Origin: an uncultured Oscillospiraceae bacterium
GTDB lineage: Bacteria; Bacillota; Clostridia; Oscillospirales; Oscillospiraceae
Assembly: GCA_947630645.1 (NCBI GenBank)
Contig: CANRIF010000005.1
Span: 1-52,238 of the forward strand
Reading direction: 5' to 3'
Length of the DNA: 52,238 bases
The notes under the pieces are model-generated. The model was not told the origin of the DNA and did no database searches. It worked only from the letters and a program-made list of their open reading frames with translations. The translations under genes were made by a program, and so were the position numbers. Shown piece by piece: positions 4,423-19,140 of the stretch. Within the stretch, counting starts at the first letter, position 1. Every line of letters starts with the position of its first letter.

Positions 4423-6483
4423 TTAGTTGAAGGTGTCCCCGTGGAGGTCGAAGAGCGCGCCGATGCGATCCTTTAGGGGCTGGTTCTCCGGCCTGGCCAG
4501 CGCCGGGTCCGCCGCGAGAAGCGCCTGGGCCTCCTGCTGGGCCTCCTTAAGGACGCGCATATCGCCGGCCAGGTCCGCCACGTGCATCTCCGGCAGGCCG
4601 TGCTGCCGGGAGCCGAAGAAGTCGCCGGGACCCCGCAGGCGCAGGTCCTCCTCGGATATCTTGAAGCCGTCGTTGGTCTTCGTCATGATGCCGAGCCGGG
4701 CCTTGGCGTCGGGGGTGTCCGCGTCGGAGAACAGCACGCAGTAGCTTTTGTGCTGGCCCCGGCCCACCCGGCCCCGGAGCTGGTGCAGCTGGCTCAATCC
4801 GAAGCGGTCCGCGTTCTCCACGATCATCAGCGCCGCGTTGGGCACGTCCACGCCCACCTCGATCACCGTGGTGGACACCAGGATGTCGTAGTCCCCGGTG
4901 GCAAAAGCGGCCATGACCGCGTCCTTGTCCTTGGCCTTCATCCGGCCGTGGACACAGCCCACCCGCAGGTCGGGGAACACGTCCCGCTGCAGCGTCTTGG
5001 CGTAACTCTCCGCGCTCTTCACGCTGGGGGGCAGTTCCTCGTTCTCCTCCACCATGGGGCAGACGATGAATACCTGCCGGCCCTCGCCCACCAGCCGGCG
5101 CACGAAGCGCCAGATGCGCGCTCGCATATCCTCGCCCAGGGCGAAGGTGTCCACCTTCTGCCGGCCCGGGGGCAGTTCGTCCAGCACGGAGATGTCCAGG
5201 TCGCCGTAGATGATCAGCGCCAGGGTCCGGGGGATGGGAGTGGCGGACATGACAAGAACATGGGGCCGCTGGACCCCTTTGCCGGCCAGGGCGCTGCGCT
5301 GCTCCACGCCGAAGCGGTGCTGCTCGTCGGTGATGACCAGGCCCAGATCCGCGAAGGCCACGCTCTCGCTCAAAAGGGCGTGGGTGCCGACAGCCACTTG
5401 GGCAAGACCGGCCTGCAAAAGTTCGTTGGCGCCCCGCTTTTCCGCCGCCTTTATGGAGCCGGTCAGCTTCACCACCCGGATGCCGTAGGGCTCCAGCAGC
5501 TGTGTGAGGTTTACATAATGCTGCTCCGCCAAAATTTCCGTGGGGGCCATGAAGGCGGATTGCAGTCCGTTTTTCGCCGCCTGCCAGATAAGGGCCGCGG
5601 CCACCAGGGTCTTGCCGCTGCCCACGTCGCCCTGCAAAAGGCGGTTCATGGTGGCGCCGGAGGTCATGTCCGCCAGCGCCTCGTCCACCGCCCGGCGCTG
5701 GGCGGCGGTGGGGGCGTAGGGCAGGGCGGACCAGAACTGGCCCATGTCCGCGGCGGCCAGCTTCCGGCCGGGGACGGCGGCTCGCTTTTCCCGGATGGTC
5801 CCCAGGGCGGCGGCCAGGGTGAACAGTTCCTCGAACACCAGCCGCCGCCGGGCCTGGTCCAGGGCCTGCTCGTCCCGGGGGAAGTGGATATTCTCATAGG
5901 CGTACCGGGCCTGGGCCAGCTGCATCCGCTCCCGCAGGGCGGGGGGCAGCACGTCCGGCGCCTGATCGCCGCACAGGGCCAGGGCCTGGCCGACGACGCC
6001 CATCAGCTGCTTCTGGCTCACCCCGGCGGTGAGCCGGTAGATGGGCATGATGCGCCCGGTGACCACGCCCTGGCGGTCCTCCCGCTCAAAGATGGGATTC
6101 ACCATGGTCCGCCGGCGACCGTTGGCGCTGACCCGGCCGTAGAAGATGTAAGTCTCCCCGGTCTGGAACTGGCTCTTGAGGTAACTCTGGTTGAACCAGG
6201 TGATGTCCAGCGCCCCCGTCTCGTCCACGGCCCGGAGTTTCAGCAGTTCCATGCCCCGGCGCACGAAGGTATTCACCGGCGGGGAGGCGGCCATGGCTTT
6301 CACGCACACCGGCGTCTCCAGGGGCGCGGCGGCGATGGGATAGCTCTGCCGCCGGTCCTCGTAGGCACGGGGGAAGTACCCCAGCAGGTCCCGCACCGTG
6401 CGGATACCCAGCTTCTCCAGGGCCTTGGCACGGGCCTGGCCCACACCCTTCAGATATTGGATGTTGTCGTCTAATCCAGCCAT
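4423..6483 (-). CDS. recG: ATP-dependent DNA helicase RecG
   Basis: RecG remodels stalled forks and branched DNA. The protein is 686 residues from the ATG at 6483 (MAGLDDNIQYLKGVG, the usual RecG N-terminus with its helix-hairpin-like KGVG). A wedge/OB domain covers about residues 55-150, then the helicase core: Walker A GDVGSGKT at 285-292, the DEQH box near 385, SATPIPRT, and the motif VI QLRGRVGRG. An upstream in-frame ATG at 6501 would add six residues, but it falls between the -35 and -10 of the best promoter, so 6483 is preferred. That leaves almost no leader; see findings. Confidence 0.95.
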   Translation of the reverse strand: MAGLDDNIQYLKGVGQARAKALEKLGIRTVRDLLGYFPRAYEDRRQSYPIAAAPLETPVCVKAMAASPPVNTFVRRGMELLKLRAVDETGALDITWFNQSYLKSQFQTGETYIFYGRVSANGRRRTMVNPIFEREDRQGVVTGRIMPIYRLTAGVSQKQLMGVVGQALALCGDQAPDVLPPALRERMQLAQARYAYENIHFPRDEQALDQARRRLVFEELFTLAAALGTIREKRAAVPGRKLAAADMGQFWSALPYAPTAAQRRAVDEALADMTSGATMNRLLQGDVGSGKTLVAAALIWQAAKNGLQSAFMAPTEILAEQHYVNLTQLLEPYGIRVVKLTGSIKAAEKRGANELLQAGLAQVAVGTHALLSESVAFADLGLVITDEQHRFGVEQRSALAGKGVQRPHVLVMSATPIPRTLALIIYGDLDISVLDELPPGRQKVDTFALGEDMRARIWRFVRRLVGEGRQVFIVCPMVEENEELPPSVKSAESYAKTLQRDVFPDLRVGCVHGRMKAKDKDAVMAAFATGDYDILVSTTVIEVGVDVPNAALMIVENADRFGLSQLHQLRGRVGRGQHKSYCVLFSDADTPDAKARLGIMTKTNDGFKISEEDLRLRGPGDFFGSRQHGLPEMHVADLAGDMRVLKEAQQEAQALLAADPALARPENQPLKDRIGALFDLHGDTFN

Positions 6484-6489
6484 GGCCTG

Positions 6490-6518
6490 ATGATACCACA
6501 TTTTCCTGCAAAAGACAA
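6490..6518 (-). promoter_or_regulatory. Candidate promoter of recG
   Basis: Read leftward: TTGTCT (6518-6513), 17 bases, TATCAT (6495-6490). The -10 ends six bases before the recG ATG at 6483, so transcription would begin at or next to the start codon. Confidence 0.45.
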
Positions 6519-6530
6519 ATCCCGGCGCAC

Positions 6531-6559
6531 TTGATATTTTTCCGGGGCTGTGCTAAAGT
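6531..6559 (+). promoter_or_regulatory. Promoter of the M3 peptidase gene
   Basis: TTGATA (6531-6536), 17 bases, TAAAGT (6554-6559), 56 bases before the ATG at 6616, which has a strong AGGAGG site. Confidence 0.55.
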
Positions 6560-6615
6560 TGAAACGTTGTAAAAATAGCAGGCGCGTCCTGCGTTGATTA
6601 GGAGGATATACTGCG

Positions 6616-8319
6616 ATGAAGTTTTCCGAGATGCCCTATGCGCGGCCGGACCTGGACCAGGTCAAGCGGATGCTGGCGGACCTGACCCAGCAGCTGAAGG
6701 ACGCGCCGGACTATGCCGCGGCCAAGGCGGTGTTTTTGAAGAAGGAGCAGGAGCAGAAGCACCTGTCCACCCAGGCGAATCTGGCCCACATCCGCCACAC
6801 CATCGACACCCGGGACGCCTTTTACGACGGGGAGATGAAGTTTTGGAACACCGCCATGCCGGAGCTGCAGGCCTACCAGCAGCAGTGGACCATGGCGATG
6901 CTCGCCAGTCCCTTCCGGGCCGACTTCGCCGCGGAGTACGGGGACCTGATGTTCGTCAACGCCGAGATCGCCCTAAAGGCCTTCTCGCCGGAGATCATCC
7001 CGGAGATGCAGCAGGAGAACGACCTGGCCCAGGAGTACGAAAAGCTGCTGGCCTCGGCCCAGATACCCTTCGAGGGCAAGGTCTACACCCTTAGCCAGCT
7101 GACCCCCTACAAGAACGACCCTGACGACGAGCGCCGTCTCGCGGCCTGGAAGGCGGAGGGCCAGTGGTACAAGGACAACCAGCCCAAGATGGACGAGATA
7201 TACGATAAGCTGGTCCACCTGCGGGACGCCATGGGCAGGAAGCTGGGCTACGAGGGCTATACTACCCTGGGCTACTACAACATGGGCCGCAACTGCTACG
7301 GCAGGGAGGACGTGGAGAAGTTCCGCGCAGCGGTGGTGAAGTATCTGGTGCCTGTGGCGGACAAGATCTACCGCCGGCAGGCCCAGCGCCTGGGCAAGAG
7401 CTACCCCATGAGCTTTGCCGACAACGCCCTGGAGTTCCGCTCCGGCAACCCCCGCCCCCAGGGCACGCCCGACGACATCCTGGCGGCGGGGAAGAAGTTC
7501 TACGGCGAGTTGAGCCAGGAGACGGGCGAGTTCTTCAACACCATGCTGGATATGGAGCTGCTGGACGTGCTGTCCACCGAGGGCAAGGAGGCCGGCGGCT
7601 ACTGCACCAGCCTCGCCGATTACGGTGTGCCCTTCATCTTCGCCAACTTCAACGGCACCCAGCACGACGTGGAGGTGGTCACCCATGAGGCCGGCCACGC
7701 CTTCGCCGCCTGGACCAACCGGGACCGGGTCCCCAGCCAGTACATCTGGCCCAGCATGGAGGGCTGCGAGGTCCACTCCATGAGCATGGAGTTCATGGCC
7801 TGGCCCTGGGAGGAGGACTTCTTCGGCCCCGACGCCCGGAAGTTCCGTTACAGCCACCTGGCCGGGGCGCTGACCTTCATCCCCTACGGCACCATGGTGG
7901 ACCACTTCCAGCACGAGGTCTATGACCACCCGGAGATGACCCCGGCGGAGCGCCACGGCGTGTGGAAGCGGCTGCTGGGGGTGTATATGCCCTGGATGAA
8001 GCTGGACGGGGACATCCCCTTTTACAGCGAGGGCGAGGGATGGCAGCGCCAGCACCACATCTACTCCAGTCCCTTCTATTACATCGACTACTGCCTGGCC
8101 CAGACCGTGTCCCTCCAGTTCTGGGCGCTGCTGCAGGACGACCAGAAGGCCGCCTGGGCCAAGTATATGGCCTATACCCGCCAGGGCGGGAGCCGGGTGT
8201 TCACCCAGCTGCTGAAAAACGCCGGGCTGGAGAGCCCCTTTGAAGAGAGTTGCCTGCGGGGCGTGTGCGAAAAGGCCAGCAAGTGGCTGGACGAATACGA
8301 TCTCACAGGCATCCAGTGA
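6616..8319 (+). CDS. M3 family oligoendopeptidase (PepF-like)
   Basis: A 567-residue zinc metallopeptidase of family M3, which cleaves short peptides in the cytoplasm. The catalytic HEAGH lies at residues 357-361 (THEAGHAFAAW), with a further glutamate in EGCEVHSMSMEF as the likely third ligand. The C-terminal part QRQHHIYSSPFYYIDYCLAQ is the substrate-binding region typical of M3 oligoendopeptidases. No signal peptide. The ribosome site AGGAGGATATACTGCG supports the ATG at 6616. It is transcribed alone, but the next operon downstream is a peptide-type ABC importer, so imported peptides may be its substrates (inference). Confidence 0.93.
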   Translation: MKFSEMPYARPDLDQVKRMLADLTQQLKDAPDYAAAKAVFLKKEQEQKHLSTQANLAHIRHTIDTRDAFYDGEMKFWNTAMPELQAYQQQWTMAMLASPFRADFAAEYGDLMFVNAEIALKAFSPEIIPEMQQENDLAQEYEKLLASAQIPFEGKVYTLSQLTPYKNDPDDERRLAAWKAEGQWYKDNQPKMDEIYDKLVHLRDAMGRKLGYEGYTTLGYYNMGRNCYGREDVEKFRAAVVKYLVPVADKIYRRQAQRLGKSYPMSFADNALEFRSGNPRPQGTPDDILAAGKKFYGELSQETGEFFNTMLDMELLDVLSTEGKEAGGYCTSLADYGVPFIFANFNGTQHDVEVVTHEAGHAFAAWTNRDRVPSQYIWPSMEGCEVHSMSMEFMAWPWEEDFFGPDARKFRYSHLAGALTFIPYGTMVDHFQHEVYDHPEMTPAERHGVWKRLLGVYMPWMKLDGDIPFYSEGEGWQRQHHIYSSPFYYIDYCLAQTVSLQFWALLQDDQKAAWAKYMAYTRQGGSRVFTQLLKNAGLESPFEESCLRGVCEKASKWLDEYDLTGIQ

Positions 8320-8618: not shown

Positions 8619-10799
8619 ATGAAGAACGCAAAGAAACTTCTTGCGCTCGTCATGGCGCTGTCTCTGTGCCTGGCTCTGGGCGCGACTGCTTTCGCCTCTG
8701 GGGAGGACGAAGAAGTCGTTTCCATCGCCGGCAAGGAGTACGGCACCGACTACGTGGAGCTGTATGAGCAGTTCTCCGACGTGACCATCGACGAGGTCAC
8801 CGAGGACGAGACCACCGGCTTGGCGTATATCGAGCGCGACGGTGTTGAGTATGAGCTGGGCATGGACTTCCTGTCCATGGCCATGGTCTACAACTGCACC
8901 GTGCCCGAGGATGGCCCTTGGGAGACCGAGGACGACGTGTACGCTACCTGGTGGAAGCTGTACATCCAGCGTTGGAACTACCTGATGCCCGAAGTGCCTC
9001 TGTACTCCAACGAGTATTATGATGTGTACAACGCCCAGATCACCGGCGTGGACGAGCATCCCACCAACCCGTTCTGGGGCCCCGCTGCCGCTATGATCGA
9101 CTGGGGCAGCGAGAAGGAGGACAACTCCATCATCCTGGGCAACTCCACCGAACTTTCCGGCCGTCTCCGCAGCAGCTCCTACGGCGTCACCAGCCCCGGC
9201 GCTGGCGACCTGGACGTGGAGAACCTGATCACCGGTCTGGAGACCGTCTCCACCACCAAGGAGGGCGGCTATGAGGTCAACCCCACCGTCGTGGAGAATA
9301 TGGAGACCGTTGACAACGAGGACGGTTCCCGTACTTACACCATGCATCTGTATGACGACCTGAAGTTCTCCGACGGCAGTGCTATCACCGCGAAGAACTA
9401 TCTGGTCTCCATGCTGGCCAACTGCGGCCCCGTGTCTCTGCAGGCGGGCGGCACTGGCACCGGCGGCCTGAACTTCGTCGGCTATGAGGCCTTCAACGCT
9501 TATGACGGCACCAACGGCGAGGAAGAGGGCGTCTCCAAGACCTTCTCCGGCGTGCGTCTGCTGGACGAGTACACCTTGCAGGTCACTGTTGACGCCGAGT
9601 ATTTGCCTTACTTCTACGCCATCACCTACGCCGGCTTCTCTCCCCAGCCCATCGAGCTGTGGCTGGGCGACGCCGACATCATGGACGACGGCGAGGGCGT
9701 CTACCTGTCCGACAACTTCTATGAGAAGGACGGCGATACCTACACCCACGCGGAGCAGATCACCAACGCTGTGTGGGATCACACCCAGGATTACCCCTAC
9801 TCCGGCGCTTACATGATCGACGAGTGGAACGAGGCCGACAAGTCCGTCACCCTGGTGAAGAACCCCGAGTTCAAGGGCAACTATGAGGGCACCGTTCCTG
9901 CCATCGAGAAGGTCGTCTACAAGCGCATCATTGCCGAGACCCAGCTGGCTGACTTCCAGGCCGGCGGCGTGGACATCCTGTCCGGCATCACCGGCGGCGA
10001 CGAGACCGACGAGGCTATCGCTCTGGTGAACGCCAACCCCGACAAGTACGGCGCTGTGCATTACAGCCGCGCCGGCTACGGCAAGCTGGGCTTCCGCGGC
10101 GACCTGGGCCCCGCCCAGTTCGTTGAGGTCCGCCAGGCTATCGCCTACTGCATGGACCGCGCCACCTTCGCGAAGGACTTCACCGGCGGCTACGGCGGCG
10201 TCGTTGACGGCCCGTACTACACCGGTTCCTGGATGTACCAGGCGGCTATGGCCGACGGTATGCTCCTGAACGCCTATGATACCTCCGTCGACAGCGCCAT
10301 CGAGGTGCTGGAGGCCGGCGGCTGGGTGTACGACGCCGAGGGCAATGAGTACACCGAGGGCGTCCGCTACAAGAAGATCCCCGCGGACGAGATGTATGAT
10401 TACGACATCACCTACGCCTCCATCGACGGCGCTTACACCGTGACCAAGGTGGGCGACGACTACTATATGCCTCTGGTCATCAACTGGTACGGCACCTCCG
10501 ACAACGTGTTCACCGACCAGCTGGTGACCGGCTTCATGGAGAACGACAACATGAAGTCCGCCGGCTTTGCCGTGCAGCAGACCATCGGCGACTTCAACCC
10601 GATGCTCGACGAGCTGTATCAGGGCGCTCTGGGCGTCAGCTACAGCGGCACTCCCACCTACAACGCCTTCAACTTCGCCACCGGCTTCAACTCCGCTGCC
10701 TATGACTACAGCTGGAACTGGCGTCTCGATCCCTACTGGTTCGAGAACAACTCCGTCTGCTACATCAAGGATATGGCCGACGTGTACTGGCTGAGCTGA
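8619..10799 (+). CDS. Oligopeptide-type ABC transporter substrate-binding protein, permuted layout
   Basis: The start is the ATG at 8619 behind AAGGAGGT; it gives a 726-residue protein with a clear signal peptide (MKNAKKLLALVMALSLCLAL, then GATAFA before SGED). The cleavage site is of signal peptidase I type; the single Cys17 sits inside the hydrophobic core after Leu, so there is no lipobox. The solute-binding fold of family 5 is visible from about residue 170 (IILGNSTELS, DLKFSDGSAITAKN). Residues about 105-165 (WNYLMPEVPLYSNEYYDVYN, PFWGPAAAMIDW) look like the normal C-terminal end of this family, while the real C-terminus stops early, suggesting circular permutation. First gene of the opp operon. 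Confidence 0.85.
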   Translation: MKNAKKLLALVMALSLCLALGATAFASGEDEEVVSIAGKEYGTDYVELYEQFSDVTIDEVTEDETTGLAYIERDGVEYELGMDFLSMAMVYNCTVPEDGPWETEDDVYATWWKLYIQRWNYLMPEVPLYSNEYYDVYNAQITGVDEHPTNPFWGPAAAMIDWGSEKEDNSIILGNSTELSGRLRSSSYGVTSPGAGDLDVENLITGLETVSTTKEGGYEVNPTVVENMETVDNEDGSRTYTMHLYDDLKFSDGSAITAKNYLVSMLANCGPVSLQAGGTGTGGLNFVGYEAFNAYDGTNGEEEGVSKTFSGVRLLDEYTLQVTVDAEYLPYFYAITYAGFSPQPIELWLGDADIMDDGEGVYLSDNFYEKDGDTYTHAEQITNAVWDHTQDYPYSGAYMIDEWNEADKSVTLVKNPEFKGNYEGTVPAIEKVVYKRIIAETQLADFQAGGVDILSGITGGDETDEAIALVNANPDKYGAVHYSRAGYGKLGFRGDLGPAQFVEVRQAIAYCMDRATFAKDFTGGYGGVVDGPYYTGSWMYQAAMADGMLLNAYDTSVDSAIEVLEAGGWVYDAEGNEYTEGVRYKKIPADEMYDYDITYASIDGAYTVTKVGDDYYMPLVINWYGTSDNVFTDQLVTGFMENDNMKSAGFAVQQTIGDFNPMLDELYQGALGVSYSGTPTYNAFNFATGFNSAAYDYSWNWRLDPYWFENNSVCYIKDMADVYWLS

Positions 10800-10838
10800 G
10801 TTTGAAAACCGCGTAAAAACTAGCATTTGACCCAAGCG

Positions 10839-10870
10839 CCGCAGGACGGGGCGCGAACCCCGTCCTGCGG
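10839..10870 (+). other. Intercistronic hairpin between oppA and oppB
   Basis: A perfect 13-bp stem (CCGCAGGACGGGG at 10839-10851 with its complement at 10858-10870) closes a 6-base loop. There is no T run, so it is more likely an mRNA-stabilising or partial-termination element that keeps oppA mRNA above that of the membrane subunits than a full terminator. Confidence 0.75.
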
Positions 10871-10947
10871 TGTCCTATTAACAGAGTGTGCGCGCGGCGT
10901 GAACATCTGTCCACGGCGCACGTTCCGGAAGAGAGCGAGGAACGAAT

Positions 10948-11991
10948 ATGGGAAAATACGTTCTCAAGCGCATCGGGTATATGCTGGTGGTGCTGGTCAT
11001 CCTGTCGTTCATCCTTTTCATGATCTACAGCCTTGTGCCTGCCAACCGGGCCTATACCGACGCGAACGCCGAATTTAAGGCGCTTAAAAACTCCATCCCC
11101 AAGGGACAGGAGCAGGAATACTTCGATAAGATCTATCTGCGCTATCAGCGCCAGTACGGCACCGATACCAATAACAAGATCATCCGCTATCTGCGGTGGA
11201 TCGGGCTGTACCCCCTTTACGACGGAAGCTACGATGGTCTTCTCCAGGGCAACCTGGGCTACTCCTACGACTACAAAAAGCCGGTCGTGGAGGTGGTGGC
11301 CCAGCCCATGGTGAATACCATTAAACTGAATATATACGCCACCATCCTGGCCCTGGGCATCACCATCCCCCTGGGCATCCACTGCGCGGTGAAGCGGGGG
11401 ACCAAGTTCGACCAGGGCATCCAGGTGTTCACCATCATCGGTTACAGCCTGCCGACCTTCCTGATCGCCATCCTGTTCATCTGGATCTTCTGCTCCAAGC
11501 TGCACATCTTCCCGCCCAGCGGCATGAAGACGCCCGGCTCCAGCTACACGGGCTTTGCCAAGTGGAAGGACGAGATGTACTATATGTGCCTGCCGCTGAT
11601 CGTGGAGACCTTCTGCTCCCTGGGCGGCATGACCCGTTACGTCCGCGCCTCCATGATCGAGGCCTTGAGCATGGACTGCATCAAGACCGCCCGGGCCAAG
11701 GGCCTGCGGGAGAAGGTCGTCATCTACTCCCACGCCTGGCGCAACGCCCTGATCCCCATCGTCACCCTGGTGGTGGGCTGGTTTTTGGGCATCTTCGGCG
11801 GCTCCATCGTCATCGAGAACATCTTCGGCTGGAACGGCATGGGCCGGCTCATGTTCCAGGGCCTGCGGGTGGCCGACTACGACGTGGTGATGCTGATGCA
11901 GATGTTCTACATAGCCGTATCCCTGCTGGGCACGCTGATCATCGACCTCATCTACGGCCTGGTCGACCCGCGCGTCCGGGTGAACAAGTGA
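10948..11991 (+). CDS. Oligopeptide ABC transporter permease, OppB/DppB type
   Basis: The 347-residue membrane subunit has the standard OppB layout: first helix RIGYMLVVLVILSFILFMIY, an extracytoplasmic stretch of ~90 residues, then five helices. The coupling motif that contacts the ATPase is MIEALSMDCIKTARAKGLRE near residues 235-254. The conserved tail IENIFGWNGMGRLMFQGL and DLIYGLVDPRVR are also as in OppB. Length is only modestly above the usual ~310. A ribosome site (GAGGAACGAAT) precedes the ATG. It forms the channel together with the next gene; unlike its partner it has no extra domain. Confidence 0.92.
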   Translation: MGKYVLKRIGYMLVVLVILSFILFMIYSLVPANRAYTDANAEFKALKNSIPKGQEQEYFDKIYLRYQRQYGTDTNNKIIRYLRWIGLYPLYDGSYDGLLQGNLGYSYDYKKPVVEVVAQPMVNTIKLNIYATILALGITIPLGIHCAVKRGTKFDQGIQVFTIIGYSLPTFLIAILFIWIFCSKLHIFPPSGMKTPGSSYTGFAKWKDEMYYMCLPLIVETFCSLGGMTRYVRASMIEALSMDCIKTARAKGLREKVVIYSHAWRNALIPIVTLVVGWFLGIFGGSIVIENIFGWNGMGRLMFQGLRVADYDVVMLMQMFYIAVSLLGTLIIDLIYGLVDPRVRVNK

Positions 11992-12007
11992 GAGGGGAGG
12001 CAGAAAT

Positions 12008-13960
12008 ATGAGCAAAAAACCTGGAAAGAGAAATGCCTCCTGGATCGTCCGCCTGTTCCGGGGCGGCTCCAACACCCTGGCCGACGAGATGGACGCGGCG
12101 AAGGCCGCCGACGTGGAGGCCATCGTCAGCCCTGTGCGGCAGATCGTCAACAACTTCCTGGAGCGGAAGCTGGCGGTGGGCGCGCTGATACTGCTCGTCT
12201 GTATGTTCATCTTCGTGTTCGTGGGCCCGCTGTTCATGCCCAAGTATAAGGACTCCTACACCGAGGTCACCCAGCAGAGCATGGCGCCCAATATGCGCCT
12301 GATGAGCGTACCCAAGGAGCTGCAAAACGACATCAAAATGATCGACAGCTACGGCTCCTTCACCGTGGGCCTGTCCAACGCGGGCAAGGTGTATATCTGG
12401 GGCTCCACCCAGCTGGGCACCACCGGCGTGGACATCGGCGATATCCCCGAGGAGGTCCAGAACGCCAAGATCGCCATGGTGGCGGCGGGCATCGACCATG
12501 TGGTCGCCATCGGCGAGGACGGACACATCTACTGCTGGGGCGCCAGCACCCTGGGCCAGTACGGCACCGAGGCCGAGGCCGAGGCCGCCGGCAAGGAGAT
12601 CAACCCCAACATCGCCTATATGCCCCAGGAACTGGCGGACAACGGCGTGGACGTGGCCAACGTGAAAAAACTCACCTGCGGCTACCAGGCCAGCGCCATC
12701 CTCATGAACGACGGCAGCTTCTACCTGTGGGGCAACAAGCTGACCTACGCCAACATGGACCGGTATCTGGCCATGCCCACCATCGAGGATCTGGACTTCA
12801 CCCTCAACTACATCGTGGGCCTGACCGAAAAACGCAACGCCGTCTATACCGGCTCCCGTGACCTTTACACCACCGTGCGTCCCAACGTGGGCGACGACGG
12901 CGTGAAGATCTCCGATTACCTGGATGGGCGCAAGATCGAGTCCATCACCGCCACCAACACCAGTATGTGCCTGCTGCTGGACGACGGCTCGGTGTGCTTC
13001 GCCGGCGACTTCCCGCTGGACGCGGTGCGCGTACCTGAACTGGAGGAGGGGGAGGACTTCACCCAGATCGTGGGCGGTTCCTACCACTACTCCGGCCTGA
13101 CCAACAAGGGCCATGTTTATTCCTGGGGCAGCGACGCGCTCAACCAGTGCCAGGTGCCCGACTCCGCCAACGAGGCCACGCGGCTGTTCTCCGGCTCCTT
13201 CCAGACCTACGCCGAGAACGCCAACGGCGACCTGTGCGCCAAGTGGGGTTTGAAGGGCTACCTCTTCGGCACCGATACCCGCGGCGCCGATATCTTCCAG
13301 CGCATCATCGCCGGCGGCAAGATGACCATGACCGTGGGCGCGGTGGCCGTCATCATCTCCACCATCATCGGCATCATCATCGGGTGCCTGGCCGGGTACT
13401 TCGGCGGCAAGGTGGACGTGCTGCTGATGCGTGTGGCCGAGATATTCTCCGCTATCCCGTTTTTGCCCTTCGCCATGATCCTCTCCGCGGTCATGAGCCA
13501 CATGGTACTGTCGGAGACCATGCGTATCTTCATCATCATGTGCATCCTGGGCGTGCTGTCCTGGCCGGGTCTGGCCCGGCTGGTGCGCGGCCAGATCCTG
13601 GTGGTGCGCGAGAGCGAATATGTGGTGGCCGCCCAGTCTATGGGCGTGAAAGAGGTCACCATCGCCTTCAAGCACATCCTGCCCAACGTCATGAGCGTCA
13701 TCCTGGTCAGCTTGATGCTGGACTTCGGCACCTGTATGCTCACCGAGTCCTCCTTGAGTTACCTGGGCTTTGGCGTGGCCTATCCCCGTCCCACCTGGGG
13801 CAATATGCTCAACGGCGCCAACAACGAGACCATCATCAACTCCTACTGGTGGCAGTGGGTGTTCACCTCCATCTTCCTGGCCGTGACCACCATCTGCATC
13901 AACATCGTGGGCGACGCCCTGCGGGACGTGATGGACCCCAAGTCCAGCGTGGAAAAGTGA
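12008..13960 (+). CDS. OppC-type ABC permease with inserted RCC1-like propeller
   Basis: At 650 residues this is about twice the usual OppC (~300). Residues 1-55 are cytoplasmic, 56-77 form the first membrane helix, and the normal core resumes at GTDTRGADIFQRIIAGG (421-437; the usual GRD is GAD). Five helices follow, with the ATPase coupling motif SEYVVAAQSMGVKEV (536-550). Between them, residues ~110-415 hold seven RCC1-like repeats, each a short G-x-V/I-Y-x-W-G strand pair: near 115, 162, 226, 266, 317, 359 and 398 (for example GKVYIWGSTQLG, GHIYCWGASTLGQYG, GHVYSWGSDALNQ). The frame is continuous with no stop. By OppC topology the insert lies outside the membrane, where the binding protein docks. 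Strong ribosome site GGGGAGGC. Confidence 0.9.
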   Translation: MSKKPGKRNASWIVRLFRGGSNTLADEMDAAKAADVEAIVSPVRQIVNNFLERKLAVGALILLVCMFIFVFVGPLFMPKYKDSYTEVTQQSMAPNMRLMSVPKELQNDIKMIDSYGSFTVGLSNAGKVYIWGSTQLGTTGVDIGDIPEEVQNAKIAMVAAGIDHVVAIGEDGHIYCWGASTLGQYGTEAEAEAAGKEINPNIAYMPQELADNGVDVANVKKLTCGYQASAILMNDGSFYLWGNKLTYANMDRYLAMPTIEDLDFTLNYIVGLTEKRNAVYTGSRDLYTTVRPNVGDDGVKISDYLDGRKIESITATNTSMCLLLDDGSVCFAGDFPLDAVRVPELEEGEDFTQIVGGSYHYSGLTNKGHVYSWGSDALNQCQVPDSANEATRLFSGSFQTYAENANGDLCAKWGLKGYLFGTDTRGADIFQRIIAGGKMTMTVGAVAVIISTIIGIIIGCLAGYFGGKVDVLLMRVAEIFSAIPFLPFAMILSAVMSHMVLSETMRIFIIMCILGVLSWPGLARLVRGQILVVRESEYVVAAQSMGVKEVTIAFKHILPNVMSVILVSLMLDFGTCMLTESSLSYLGFGVAYPRPTWGNMLNGANNETIINSYWWQWVFTSIFLAVTTICINIVGDALRDVMDPKSSVEK

Positions 13961-13972
13961 GGAGGGAAGAAG

Positions 13973-14986
13973 ATGCCACTGCTTGAAGTGAAAAACCTGC
14001 GTACCTTTTTCAAGACGAAAAGGGGCATAGTCAAGGCGGTCAACGACGTGTCCTATTCCCTGGAGCCCGGCAAGACCATCGGGATCGTGGGCGAGTCCGG
14101 TTCCGGCAAGTCCGTGTCCGCCATGAGCATCCTCCAGCTGCTGGACGAGAACGGCTACATCGACTCCGGCGAGATCATCTTCGAGGGCAAGGAATTGACC
14201 AAACTCTCCCGGGAGGAGATGTACCACATCCGCGGCAACGCCATCTCCGTCATCTTCCAGGAGCCCATGACCAGCCTCAACCCGGTGTTCACGGTGGACA
14301 GGCAGCTGTGCGAGCCGTTCATCATCCACCAGGGCATGAACAAAAAACAGGCCCATGAGCAGGCCCTGAAAATGCTCTACGACGTGCAGATACCCAACCC
14401 CGAATCGGTCATCCGCCAGTATCCCCACCAGCTGTCCGGCGGTATGCGCCAGAGGGTGATGATCGCCATGGCCCTGGCCTGCCGGCCCAAGATCCTGATC
14501 GCCGACGAGCCCACCACGGCCCTGGACGTGACCATCCAGGCCCAGATCCTCCGGCTGATGAACGATCTGCAAAAGGAAAAGGGCACCAGCATCATCTTCA
14601 TCACCCACGACCTGGGCGTCATTAACGAGATGGCCGACGACGTGGCGGTGATGTACTGCGGCCAGGTGGTGGAGAAGGCCTCCGCCCGGGTGATCTTCGC
14701 GGACTGCCCCAAGAGCCACCCCTACACCGAGGGCCTGATGATGTCCATCCCCCGGCTGAACGCCATCGACAAGAAGATCGAACCCATCCCCGGCGTGGTG
14801 CCGCACCCGCTGGCGCTGCCGAAGGGCTGCAAGTTCGCCCCCCGCTGCAAGTACTGCACGCAAAAGTGCGTGGACGAGGAGCCGGAGCTGGTGGACGTGG
14901 GCAACGGACAGCTGATCCGGTGCTTCTATCCCGAAAAGGAGGTAAGGTGCAGTGAAGACCACAAAAAAATTACTGTCGATCAGTAA
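13973..14986 (+). CDS. Oligopeptide ABC transporter ATPase, OppD/DppD type
   Basis: The 337-residue ATPase has normal length and all motifs: Walker A GESGSGKS (~42-49), Q-loop [12 protein letters not shown], signature LSGGMRQRV, Walker [10 protein letters not shown] and the H-switch THDLG. The C-terminal oligopeptide extension holds the Cys pattern [15 protein letters not shown] and a later Cys, a site that carries an iron-sulfur cluster in some OppD proteins (known for the family; not shown here). It pairs with OppF to power the permeases. The stop overlaps the next gene by 35 bases. Confidence 0.94.
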
Positions 14987-16577
14987 TCTGAAGAAATACT
15001 TCCCTGTGGCGAAGACCTCCCTGTTCCAGCGGGAGCAGCTGTATGTGCGCGCCAACGAGGATATTTCCCTGGACATATACGAGGGCGAGACCCTGGGCGT
15101 GGTGGGCGAGTCCGGCTGCGGCAAGTCCACCCTGGGCCGGGTGCTGCTCCAGCTCTACCCCCAGACCGCCGGCACCACCATGTACTATGGTTCGACCCTG
15201 GCGGAGACGGCGCCGGAGTATGTGGAGCATACCCTCAAGGAACTGGGAAAGTACAAGGAGAAGCTGAAAAAGGCCTCCGCCAAGGCGGCGGAGCTGGACA
15301 AAAAAGTGGCGGACGTAGGCGGCAAGGACAACGCCGACTTCTACCTGCTGCAAGAGCAGAACCTGGCCCGGTGCGAGGAGCAGACCTGCCTGACGAACAT
15401 CGTCAAGATCATGGGCGGCTTCTTCGCCGTGGACGAGAACGACGCCGGCCGCCATCTGCTGCTCAAACAGTATGAGGAGCAGGTCAAGCGCCGCAAGGCC
15501 CGGGAGGCCTATCTGGCCGCAAAGCTGGACCACGACGCCCTGGCCGCCGACGCCGAGGCCGGCTCCGAAAAGGCCAAGGGGCGCCTGGCCGAGGCCCAGA
15601 GCAAGATGGACGCCGCCAAGAAGCACCTGGACGCCTGCGACGCCGACGTGGCCGCCGTGGACCAGCAGCTGGACGCGCTGCGGGCCAAGTACGCGGACAA
15701 CGAGGAATTCGCCAAGTACGAGGCCATGCGGGACGACGGCATCGATCTGTCCCGGCTGAAGTACAACGAGATGCGCCTGTTCCGCAAGGACTTGCAGATC
15801 ATCTTCCAGGACCCCTATTCCAGCCTGAACCCGCGCATGACCATCGGCCAGATCATCGAGGAGGGCCTGCTGACCCACAACTTCTTCAAGCACGGCTCCG
15901 ACAAGATGCGCGAGCATATCGTCAACACCATGAAGATGTGCGGCTTGCAGGAGTATATGCTCCACCGCTATCCTCACCAGTTCTCCGGCGGCCAGCGGCA
16001 GCGCGTGGCCATCGCCCGCGCCCTGGCGGTGCAGCCGAAGTTCATCGTGTGCGACGAGTGCGTGTCGGCCCTGGACGTGTCCATCCAGTCCCAGATCATC
16101 AACCTGCTGCAGGAACTGCGGGATAAGCAGAACCTGACCTATATGTTCATCAGCCACGACTTGAGCGTGGTGCGCTACATCTCCGACCGCATCTGCGTGA
16201 TGTACCTGGGCAACGTGGTGGAACTGGGGGAGAGCGAGACCATCTTCAACGATCCCCGCCACCCCTACACCGTGGCGCTGCTGTCCGCCATCCCCACCAC
16301 GGACACGGACAGCCTGCAGCGGGAGCGCATCCTGCTGGAGGGCAACATCCCCAGCCCCATCAAACCGCCCTCCGGCTGCAAGTTCCATACCCGGTGCTAC
16401 ATGGCCTGCGACAAGTGCAAGACCGTCCCGCCCGAACTGACCGAAGTGGAGCCGGGCCACTTCCTGGCCTGCCACTTCCCCCAGCGGAAGATGGACGAGA
16501 ACGGCAATTACCTCTTCGAACTGCCTAAGATGACCACCGTGGCCCGGAACACCGACGCCCCGGCCCAGGCGGAATGA
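14952..16577 (+). CDS. OppF-type ABC ATPase with long coiled-coil insert
   Basis: At 541 residues it is ~200 longer than usual OppF. It starts at GTG 14952 ([20 protein letters not shown]), with AAAGGAGGT nine bases before, overlapping oppD. Walker A GESGCGKST is at 52-60. Then, before the Q-loop IFQDPYSSLNP (284-294), residues ~84-262 form a charged, Ala/Lys/Glu-rich helical stretch (KELGKYKEKLKKASAKAAEL, RRKAREAYLAAKLDH, EAQSKMDAAKKHLDA) that reads as an antiparallel coiled coil. Signature FSGGQRQRV, Walker B FIVCDECVSALD (usual Pro is Cys370) and SHDLS follow, then the Cys-rich oligopeptide tail. ATP-hydrolysing residues are intact, so it should be active. Confidence 0.92.
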   Translation: MKTTKKLLSISNLKKYFPVAKTSLFQREQLYVRANEDISLDIYEGETLGVVGESGCGKSTLGRVLLQLYPQTAGTTMYYGSTLAETAPEYVEHTLKELGKYKEKLKKASAKAAELDKKVADVGGKDNADFYLLQEQNLARCEEQTCLTNIVKIMGGFFAVDENDAGRHLLLKQYEEQVKRRKAREAYLAAKLDHDALAADAEAGSEKAKGRLAEAQSKMDAAKKHLDACDADVAAVDQQLDALRAKYADNEEFAKYEAMRDDGIDLSRLKYNEMRLFRKDLQIIFQDPYSSLNPRMTIGQIIEEGLLTHNFFKHGSDKMREHIVNTMKMCGLQEYMLHRYPHQFSGGQRQRVAIARALAVQPKFIVCDECVSALDVSIQSQIINLLQELRDKQNLTYMFISHDLSVVRYISDRICVMYLGNVVELGESETIFNDPRHPYTVALLSAIPTTDTDSLQRERILLEGNIPSPIKPPSGCKFHTRCYMACDKCKTVPPELTEVEPGHFLACHFPQRKMDENGNYLFELPKMTTVARNTDAPAQAE

Positions 16578-16838: not shown

Positions 16839-17897
16839 TCACTGGGCGGCAAGGAGCCCGGTGAGGAGGGACTTGTTGTACCAGGTCTGCTCCTGGTAGC
16901 GGTCGTAATAGGCGTCGCCGCCCAGGGCGGTGCGGAAGGAGGAAAGGCTGGGATCGGATATCACCTCGACGCCGGCCTCCTCCATGGCGGCCAGGGCGTC
17001 CGCATCCGCCGCCGCGCCGGTGTCCAGGCTGTACTGGGCCGCGGCCAGGGCCTGCTCCTGCAAAACCGTTTGCACCTCGGCGGGGAGAGCCATCCAGGTC
17101 TTCTGGCTCACGGTGATGGTAAAGCCCTTCCACATATAGCCCAGGCTGGAGAAGTAGATGGTGGGAGGGGGTACGGGCGTCTCCGCCGGCGCCTCCTCGC
17201 CCTCGGCGGGGGCCTCGGTGGGCTCGGGTTCGGGGGACGGCTGGCACAGCGGGGCGATGTCGGCGGCCACGGCGGCGCCGTTGCTCCCGGCCGCGGGCAG
17301 TTCGGCCGCCGATGTGACGCTGGGAACGGCGCCGAGGGCGGTCCAGAAGTCCGCGCACAGCCCGTCGTCCGGTATGCTCAATGTAAGGCCCGCCACGTCC
17401 CCGGCGGTGCGGACGGGCTGGCCGGTGGTCAGGACGTGGCGCATCCCCGCGCTGCCCTCCGCCAGAAAGACCAGGCCGCCGTCGGCGAGGCCCCGGAAGA
17501 GGGAGGCGCCGGCGGAGCCGTTGGCTGCGGAGACGGCCTGCTCGGCGCTGTCGAACACCAGGGGCAGCTCCAGCATCCGCACTGGCTCACAGAGGGCCGC
17601 GTAAGCGGCGGTGTCGGCGGCCAGGATGTCGATGGCGCCGGTCCCGGCGGCGGCAAGCGCCTGGGCGCCGTCCCCCAGCAGACCGGAGCTGGTGACATCC
17701 AGCCGGACGCGCCCGCCGGAGGCCTCGTCCACCAGACGGGCGTATTCCTGGAGCGTTTTCGTCATCATCGAGTCCGCGCCGCCGGTGGAATAGGCGACAA
17801 GGACGTAAGGCGTTCCGTCCCCGTCCGAGGCCAGCGCACAGGGCGCGGCGGCGAGGAACAAAACGATGGCAAGGATCATGCACAGGCTCTTTTTCAT
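16839..17897 (-). CDS. Orphan TRAP-type (DctP-like) solute-binding protein
   Basis: The 352-residue exported protein has a signal peptide (MKKSLCMILAIVLFLAAAPC, cut after ALA) and a DctP-like layout: early LVAYSTGGADSMMTKTLQEY, a RVRLDVTSSGLLGD region, AIDILAADTAAYAALC, LPLVFDSAEQAVSA, and a later GYMWKGFTITVSQKTWMALP typical of TRAP binding proteins. At residues ~232-258 a Pro/Glu/Ala-rich linker (PSPEPEPTEAPAEGEEAPAE) interrupts the fold just before the strand PTIYFSSLGY, and the usual ligand-anchoring Arg region is weakly kept (GMRHVLTTGQPVRT). No TRAP membrane subunits are nearby, so it may be a stand-alone binder or sensor. Confidence 0.75.
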   Translation of the reverse strand: MKKSLCMILAIVLFLAAAPCALASDGDGTPYVLVAYSTGGADSMMTKTLQEYARLVDEASGGRVRLDVTSSGLLGDGAQALAAAGTGAIDILAADTAAYAALCEPVRMLELPLVFDSAEQAVSAANGSAGASLFRGLADGGLVFLAEGSAGMRHVLTTGQPVRTAGDVAGLTLSIPDDGLCADFWTALGAVPSVTSAAELPAAGSNGAAVAADIAPLCQPSPEPEPTEAPAEGEEAPAETPVPPPTIYFSSLGYMWKGFTITVSQKTWMALPAEVQTVLQEQALAAAQYSLDTGAAADADALAAMEEAGVEVISDPSLSSFRTALGGDAYYDRYQEQTWYNKSLLTGLLAAQ

Positions 17898-17929
17898 AGG
17901 CGGCGTGTCCTCCTCATTGGCATGACCTT

Positions 17930-17958
17930 ATTCTACAACCGCTGTCGCCGCCCGTCAA
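17930..17958 (-). promoter_or_regulatory. Promoter of the TRAP-type binding protein gene
   Basis: Read leftward: TTGACG (17958-17953), 17 bases, TAGAAT (17935-17930), 32 bases before the ATG, with an AGGAGGA ribosome site between. Confidence 0.7.
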
Positions 17959-18008
17959 CTCTTTCCATCGGTTTTTCCGCGCCGCGGCGGGGCGAGAAAG
18001 AGCATAGC

Positions 18009-18037
18009 AAAAGCGCAGGGACCATCCCCGCGCTTTT
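18009..18037 (-). terminator. Terminator after the GNAT-like gene
   Basis: AAAAGCGC at both ends (18009-18016 and 18030-18037) pairs with further GGG/CCC pairing across a small loop. Read leftward it ends in TTTT, just past the stop at 18044. Confidence 0.65.
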
Positions 18038-18043
18038 ATACTT

Positions 18044-18760
18044 TTATATCAAGATGTAGGCGTCATAAGTATCTGTGCCGGGGTCACGGAAAAAGGCCCG
18101 CAGGGCCATCGCGGCCGGATCGCAGTCGTCGCACTCAAAGCGGACGGTGCCGTACTGCTCCAGCATCCGGGAGAGCAGCGTCTGGGCAAAGCCGGGAAAG
18201 CCCGGCGGATGGACGGTCCCGATATAGGCGATCTCGTTCCCGTCTACAAAGGCATAGTGTACGATGCCGCCGTCCTTCCGGCTGAAAAGGACCACATCCG
18301 GCAGGACGCGGTAAAACGAGGTTCTGTCCGCCGTCAGCGGGCTGACCGTCGCGTGGGTCAGAGCGTAGCTTTCGTAGAGAAGCGCGCCGCAGTTCTCAAA
18401 AGCGGGGTCGCCGCGCGCTGCCTGGACCAAGGAAACAGTGGGCTTTATAGGCGCGAGAAGGTCTTGTACGCCTGCCTCCACCTCATAGCACCGGCGTTTT
18501 CTCTGAAAACCGCCGGCGGCCAGGAAAGCGCATTTCTCCGCGTCCCGGGAGGGGAGCATGACCTGCAACGGCCGGGCCAGCGCCGTCCGGAGCAGGCCGA
18601 AAAGTTCCCTCGCGCCGGCCGGATCGTACCGTGCCAGCGCCAGCTCCAGGTGGCAGGTCTGTGCGTGGAACGGCTCGATGCGGGCGGAGACGTACCCGAT
18701 GCCCTCGCCCTGATCGTACACGTCCCACCGGCCGTTATCATGTGCTTTGATCGTTATCAT
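18044..18760 (-). CDS. GNAT-like acetyltransferase, two-lobed
   Basis: The ATG pair at 18763/18760 follows GAGGA; the second ATG has the better spacing, giving 238 residues starting MITIKAHDNGRWDVYDQGEG. A longer frame reaches 18973 but runs through the upstream small membrane gene in another frame and is not credible. The C-terminal half looks GNAT-like: VVLFSRKDGGIVHYAFVDGN, EIAYIGTVHPPGFPGFAQTL (usual acetyl-CoA loop region) and a last strand VRFECDDCDPAAMALRAFF. The N-terminal half looks like a second degenerate GNAT lobe (RDAEKCAFLAAGGFQRK). Substrate unknown. It is 23 bases after the small membrane gene. Confidence 0.65.
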   Translation of the reverse strand: MITIKAHDNGRWDVYDQGEGIGYVSARIEPFHAQTCHLELALARYDPAGARELFGLLRTALARPLQVMLPSRDAEKCAFLAAGGFQRKRRCYEVEAGVQDLLAPIKPTVSLVQAARGDPAFENCGALLYESYALTHATVSPLTADRTSFYRVLPDVVLFSRKDGGIVHYAFVDGNEIAYIGTVHPPGFPGFAQTLLSRMLEQYGTVRFECDDCDPAAMALRAFFRDPGTDTYDAYILI

Positions 18761-18783
18761 CATGTTTCCTCGGCTACGTGCCG

Positions 18784-18966
18784 CTATTTCTTCCGGGCGT
18801 AACTTTTGTATAGCAGCCCGGTCAGGCACCCCAGCGACACGCCGAAGCACAGCCCCACGCCGATCCCGGCGTAGCTGTCCAGCACCTTGCAAAAGATGCC
18901 GCAGAACAGAATGGCCATGGAGATGCCCACGCTCAAGCCCACGCTGATATAGGAACCGCGTTTCAT
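18784..18966 (-). CDS. Small two-span membrane protein
   Basis: A 60-residue protein (MKRGSYISVGLSVGISMAIL start) with two hydrophobic segments, ~6-27 and ~34-52, the second Gly-rich (GIGVGLCFGVSLGCLTGLL), and a basic tail KSYARKK. The AAGGAGG site lies 8 bases before this ATG; the other ATG at 18973 is only one base from it. Gly-rich double-span proteins of this size are common and mostly of unknown role. Probably co-transcribed with the GNAT-like gene. Confidence 0.7.
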   Translation of the reverse strand: MKRGSYISVGLSVGISMAILFCGIFCKVLDSYAGIGVGLCFGVSLGCLTGLLYKSYARKK

Positions 18967-19007
18967 TTTTCATGCCTCCTTGTTTTCAAGTCCCCTTGAC
19001 ATTCGGC

Positions 19008-19013
19008 ATTGTA
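19008..19013 (-). promoter_or_regulatory. Possible -10 box for the small membrane gene
   Basis: Read leftward TACAAT with an upstream TGG, 41 bases before the ATG at 18966; no good -35 at standard spacing, so the call is weak. Confidence 0.3.
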
Positions 19014-19140
19014 CCACAAGGCCATGGAAAAATCCACCGTCCCCGGCGGCGGCCGCGTTGCTTTGCCATAGGCATTATGATATACTAAATATAATAAGCG
19101 CATCGGATGGGATGTCGGACGGAACGCGAGGGGACGGGGA

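Follow-up and report, generated by a model that had tools for sequence, protein, structure and literature searches.

OppC and DppC permeases, such as those of E. coli (OppC, 8z21_B; DppC, 8z1v) and M. tuberculosis (8j5q, 8wd9), combine an OppC_N helix with a BPD_transp_1 core and a GTD motif, and are encoded in an oppABCDF operon. They comprise about 300 residues, mostly with 20-33 residues between the first transmembrane helix (TM1) and GTD. Work on how binding proteins dock to ABC importers has mostly relied on bare permeases. For the maltose importer MalFGK2, a study cited in PMC3150292 and PMC3328499 describes MalF-P2 as a large extracytoplasmic domain whose interactions with the binding protein extend through the cycle. 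Here, we report on an OppC-like permease that shares helix, core, GTD motif and operon with the ordinary proteins. In contrast to these, members of its type (RCC1-OppC) carry about 300-400 residues between TM1 and GTD, for which a closed propeller is predicted.

The gene was found in an uncultured Oscillospiraceae bacterium; the window is the whole stretch of 52,238 nucleotides that was analysed. Its gene order is pepF-oppA-oppB-oppC-oppD-oppF (Table 1), with genes for an SBP_bac_5 protein, OppB, OppD and OppF all beside oppC (8619-16577) and a purine-rich stretch upstream of the oppC frame that fits a ribosome-binding site. The M3 peptidase gene is located directly 5' of oppA, and strong pepF matches also occur near the operon in the same-genus loci L115-L117, L119 and L120. 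Judged from the OppA family and the adjoining peptidase, the substrate is presumably an oligopeptide. Strong pepF matches were also observed in L123, L230, L235 and L238.

Table 1. Features of the opp locus in the window.
Feature	Positions	Strand	Basis
M3 peptidase gene (pepF-like), 5' of oppA	6616..8319	+	Pfam Peptidase_M3, 6.2e-26
oppA, solute-binding protein, circularly permuted, signal peptide without lipobox	8619..10799	+	SBP_bac_5, 3.1e-34; segment order
OppA, relocated C-terminal segment between signal peptide and main body	8853..9122	+	Similarity to orthologue C-termini
oppB, permease	10948..11991	+	Pfam BPD_transp_1, 2.2e-38
oppC, permease with inserted RCC1/BLIP-II-type propeller (predicted), 650 aa	12008..13960	+	Pfam, predicted model, fold comparison
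OppC TM1, about residues 54-77	12167..12238	+	OppC_N 41-84; model helix 54-76; N-terminus inside
OppC seven-bladed propeller (predicted), about residues 103-415	12314..13252	+	RCC1 repeats, model, fold comparison; extracellular by topology
OppC permease core, residues 416-650	13253..13957	+	NCBIfam Opp4C, 7.7e-87 (below cut-off); E. coli OppC 8z21_B 80-301
oppD, ATPase	13973..14986	+	Pfam ABC_tran and oligo_HPY
oppF, ATPase, 541 aa, insert of ~190 residues	14952..16577	+	ABC_tran in two stretches, oligo_HPY

Within one frame of 650 residues, Pfam places OppC_N at 41-84, RCC1 repeats at about 100-410 and BPD_transp_1 at 455-645. OppC_N and BPD_transp_1 both score above cut-off in the same chain, which, together with the operon, marks the protein as an OppC-type permease, in agreement with the first-pass annotation. 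Opp4C is the best of the NCBIfam models listed, with 291 bits against an equivalog cut-off of 350 bits; therefore, we speak of an OppC-like protein and make no Opp4C assignment. A phmmer comparison with E. coli OppC (8z21_B) aligns residues 416-646 with 80-301 (163 bits), and a weak piece (8 bits) aligns residues 48-96 with 31-78. By this alignment and the position of OppC_N, the insert is in the loop following TM1. Because basic residues precede TM1, the positive-inside rule puts the N-terminus inside and this loop outside the membrane, where the annotation had located it.

The repeats score above the Pfam cut-offs for RCC1_2 (74 bits, cut-off 22) and RCC1 (48 bits, cut-off 21.7). The whole-domain model WD40_RLD remains below its cut-off (102 vs 150 bits), and the ring is thus a divergent one. 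The predicted OppC model exhibits seven strand groups, and its propeller superposes on complete rings, so that a closed seven-bladed ring is predicted. A seven-repeat RCC1-like ring had been proposed from the letters alone; profile search and structure prediction both bear it out, with one amendment. The ring is of the RCC1 type, but in the fold comparison of the model its nearest solved fold is the bacterial BLIP-II (1jtd_B, 3qi0), with UVR8 and RCC1-like domains matching as well. BLIP-II, UVR8 and RCC1-like domains are mostly protein-binding rings. The model is of low confidence over the permease part (pLDDT mostly 33-61). The spacing between the xG of blade 7 and GTD is 8 residues in 59 out of 64 proteins by script, and was read by eye as the same in the other five. 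Since the last blade enters the GTD motif via a junction of fixed length, the propeller appears to be rigidly mounted at the extracellular mouth.

The window assembly consists of 134 contigs and is 73% complete, which might suggest that an assembly join or a frameshift fused two genes. However, full-length orthologues with 95, 93 and 85% identity occur in genomes of the same genus, and further members are encoded in G900 and G886, genomes of a single contig each (3.13 and 1.81 Mb, respectively), as well as in Clostridium sp. Cult1, which is not marked as a MAG and has the gene on a contig of 2.6 Mb. With orthologues in many independent genomes, we reject an artefact as practically negligible, and the single uninterrupted gene read by the first-pass annotation stands. 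The architecture is not a one-off, as the search of related genomes revealed a widespread clade. Counting the own genome, RCC1-OppC is present in at least 10 of 149 relatives, at least 29 of 394 genomes at the level of the order (ten families), at least 17 of 391 at class level and at least 14 of 398 at phylum level, these sets being overlapping samples of the groups. Within the genus, it occurs in at least 6 of 35 genomes, and among the matches listed in 8 of 80 loci. Carriers also include Oscillospiraceae SIG705 and an Erysipelotrichaceae MAG. RCC1-OppC is thus widespread, both in numerous families within the Clostridia and elsewhere in the Bacillota.

Altogether, at least 64 distinct RCC1-OppC proteins were collected among at least 198 distinct OppC cores. 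A tree was calculated from 148 of 195 usable cores, i.e., all 63 RCC1 rows and 85 of the 132 others, by a quick method without mixture model and with long-branch warnings. The 63 RCC1 rows form one clade (SH-aLRT 100, one change of state) in which no member lacks the propeller. The propeller was therefore probably gained by OppC a single time; which clade is nearest is not settled by this tree of 148 cores.

A separate OppC clade (L015-L031, L034, L208, L211-L213, L215, L218) carries a different extracellular insert of about 150-410 residues at the same site after TM1. No Pfam domain above cut-off was found in this insert (eight insert-bearing proteins), and a fold search with the whole model returned matches filled by the permease core. 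Apart from this clade, the OppC-like proteins of L209, L210 and L220 (474-487 aa) have an N-terminal extension with extra hydrophobic segments before OppC_N, and L216 and L217 were grouped with them by length. A propeller protein of the RCC1 type which is not a permease was noticed in L154 near an ordinary opp operon (reverse-strand frame 17372-19027, propeller profile 5.6e-26).

For six pairs from four close species, dN/dS is 0.06-0.39 in the propeller and 0-0.11 in the core. The propeller is under purifying selection, yet evolves faster than the core. Alignment variability agrees with this, at 1.6-2.5 bits in the propeller vs 1.12 bits in the core (60 of 64 sequences; four partial ones were dropped). 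The conserved residues of the propeller are mostly repeat-structural, and hence no conserved docking patch was identified on the ring in the 60 aligned sequences. The fast evolution and the different insert of the other clade could point to a mere structural spacer or a decoy, e.g., a shield against phage or bacteriocins, with no role in transport. Purifying selection, the constant junction and the 63-row clade free of propeller-less members argue against this, and we consider it quite improbable.

The reading that we prefer, at a probability of roughly 45%, is drawn by analogy to MalF-P2: the propeller would be a permanent docking platform and gate for OppA on the oligopeptide importer OppABCDF. 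OppC would have gained a seven-bladed propeller of the RCC1/BLIP-II type in the extracellular loop after TM1. Rigidly fixed at the extracellular mouth of the permease, the ring would hold OppA beside the translocation path and help to report its loaded state, as MalF-P2 does for the maltose-binding protein. The mostly protein-binding fold relatives, the use of this site for another insert by a separate permease clade, the single clade with its fixed junction from blade 7 to GTD, and the dN/dS values of the propeller all speak for it. On the other side, ordinary OppC proteins function although they have no propeller, the ring varies more than the core and shows no identified docking patch, and the model is poor where it covers the permease.

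Distances between subunits were compared in the RCC1 operons, and an insert in OppF served as control. In the window, it comprises about 190 residues and separates Walker A from the Q-loop (about 15204-15737, boundaries judged by eye); a long OppF insert at that place is present in 39 out of 42 RCC1 operons and absent in L038, L122 and L237. Of the 48 loci, six had been excluded in advance because they were truncated or nearly identical to others. Two versions were calculated, both with the other subunits held fixed: one over 42 operons with Kimura distances and linear controls, the other over 39 of them with raw distances and squared controls. The partial correlation between propeller and OppA amounts to 0.49 in the former and 0.47 in the latter (rank version 0.33), and 0 of 1000 Mantel shuffles reach the latter value. 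Propeller distances follow neither the own core (-0.06 and -0.03) nor OppD (0.05 and 0.06), which is in favour of docking on OppA. The link to OppB varies with the method (0.14 vs 0.41, respectively), which is not. The OppF insert, cytoplasmic and equally fast, yields 0.17 over the 39 operons both with the propeller and with OppA, values reached by 4 and 5 of 1000 shuffles, respectively. As this control also beats most shuffles, the shuffles alone prove little.

The signal is unevenly distributed. For 27 operons not seen permuted in OppA (three of them unresolved), the propeller gives 0.17 with OppA and 0.43 with OppB; the control gives 0.20 (OppF insert with OppA) and 0.25 (with the propeller), so that the OppA value is no higher than control level and counts against docking. 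In the 12 permuted operons, propeller and OppA reach 0.84, with the control raised too (0.45 with OppA, 0.42 with the propeller). A strict-motif version with 23 operons, 19 being lost to the motif, gives 0.67 overall and 0.20 for the non-permuted ones. This pattern suggests that the propeller is linked to the extracellular side of the complex, and speaks only in part for a specific contact to OppA. The first-pass annotation had located the propeller exactly where the solute-binding protein docks; this is a candidate site, as the position fits and some of the distance correlations agree.

The control-level value outside the permuted operons would also suit a propeller that binds an extracellular partner other than OppA, such as a wall glycan, a peptidase, or a neighbour or host protein, and thus positions the importer or recruits a source of peptides. 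RCC1-type rings have very different partners, BLIP-II binding an unrelated enzyme, and a ring that evolves faster than the core and shows no conserved docking patch is compatible with this. Over all operons, however, the distance correlation is with OppA, and a short fixed junction to the permease would be odd for a free adhesin. We regard such a partner as a doubtful but serious candidate.

In most relatives, OppA ends with the segment LGMDYLSMAMVY...PLYSNYYFDVYNAKI..., whereas in the window this C-terminal segment of about 90 residues sits after the signal peptide and before the usual N-terminal strand. BLASTP recovers the swapped order: residues 226-764 of the window frame match 96-643 of the L118 protein (48%), and residues 135-216 match 682-751 (54%, 1e-23). 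Across the 48 RCC1 loci, which represent 47 different contigs because L041 and L226 share one, OppA is permuted in 13, normal in 31 and unresolved in three; one has no oppA match. A literature search on circularly permuted ABC binding proteins, judged by titles, found no peptide-binding protein. Among ABC solute-binding proteins, the glucose-binding TpMglB-2 of Treponema pallidum is described as naturally circularly permuted (PMC4990184). That protein belongs to the proposed cluster Bc, whereas the window OppA is an SBP_bac_5 protein in which the C-terminal segment now follows the signal peptide.

An oppA match adjoins the permease in 47 of the 48 loci, although some frames are cut by contig ends. 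This is at odds with a propeller that itself captures peptides or filters their size above the channel, i.e., a second, permease-fused receptor. The topology, with the ring at the extracellular mouth, would allow such a role, and fused receptor domains occur in other importers; the solved rings closest to it mostly bind proteins, though, and we judge this reading unlikely.

The lipobox pattern is matched by 40 out of 47 OppA frames of RCC1 operons. It is missing in the window, L115, L116, L117 and L250 and in the short frames L228 and L236. The window signal peptide (8619-8720) reads AFA-S, and those of the same-genus L115-L117 are alike; the L037 protein matches the pattern, although the SVSC-AFA found there looks closer to an ordinary signal peptide. 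In view of the 40 matching frames, we reject the idea that the propeller generally stands in for the lipid anchor and that this was the cause of the fusion. Replacement of the anchor by the ring would apply at most to the window's own lineage, as a secondary loss. There, a permuted, soluble OppA without lipobox might be kept at the surface of a cell that lacks an outer membrane solely by docking on the propeller, which we rate as rather unlikely. To our knowledge, no such capture-by-permease importer has been described. In L134, which belongs to the other-insert class, an OppA-like protein (frame 5206-7467) also has a signal peptide without lipobox.

The length of OppA was rejected as a clear-cut mark of the insert. 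In a smaller set, 18 OppA proteins of the RCC1 type span 627-821 aa and 10 of the other-insert class 754-810 aa. This set was filtered by length, at the cost of a single frame at a contig end (L130, 476 aa) and of none of the ordinary ones; it does not include four ordinary loci and an additional binding protein of L119. In the larger set, three whole-looking OppA proteins of RCC1 operons (567, 599 and 602 aa) overlap 24 ordinary ones (530-613 aa). Long OppA proteins in RCC1 operons are therefore only a tendency, and the overlap counts against docking and gating by the propeller.

Each part of the protein comes from a known family; the combination of OppC with an RCC1/BLIP-II-type propeller was not found described in the literature searched. 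A ring of a protein-binding type has been attached to the outside of a peptide importer and retained in numerous clostridial families and elsewhere in the Bacillota. The RCC1-OppC importer is experimentally accessible: as the ring is open to deletion, exchange and mutation, one can directly test how the binding protein docks, how it is retained and how gating works. Moreover, the binding proteins of the RCC1 operons form a natural series, some being circularly permuted and others not, some having a lipid anchor and others lacking it.

The likeness to BLIP-II is one of fold only. BLIP-II, a secreted RCC1-type propeller of Streptomyces, is a free beta-lactamase inhibitor, whereas the OppC ring is built into a subunit of a transporter. 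RCC1, UVR8, the RLDs of HERC2 and RPGR are eukaryotic, and no role with Ran, in chromatin or as photoreceptor is implied for the OppC ring. MalF-P2 resides in another loop and has another fold than the OppC propeller. It would be a counterpart in the way of working, not a homologue: as far as MalF-P2 is described in the sources cited above, both are large extracytoplasmic inserts in one permease subunit of an importer, and the contact with the binding protein reported for MalF-P2 is one that we infer for the OppC ring.
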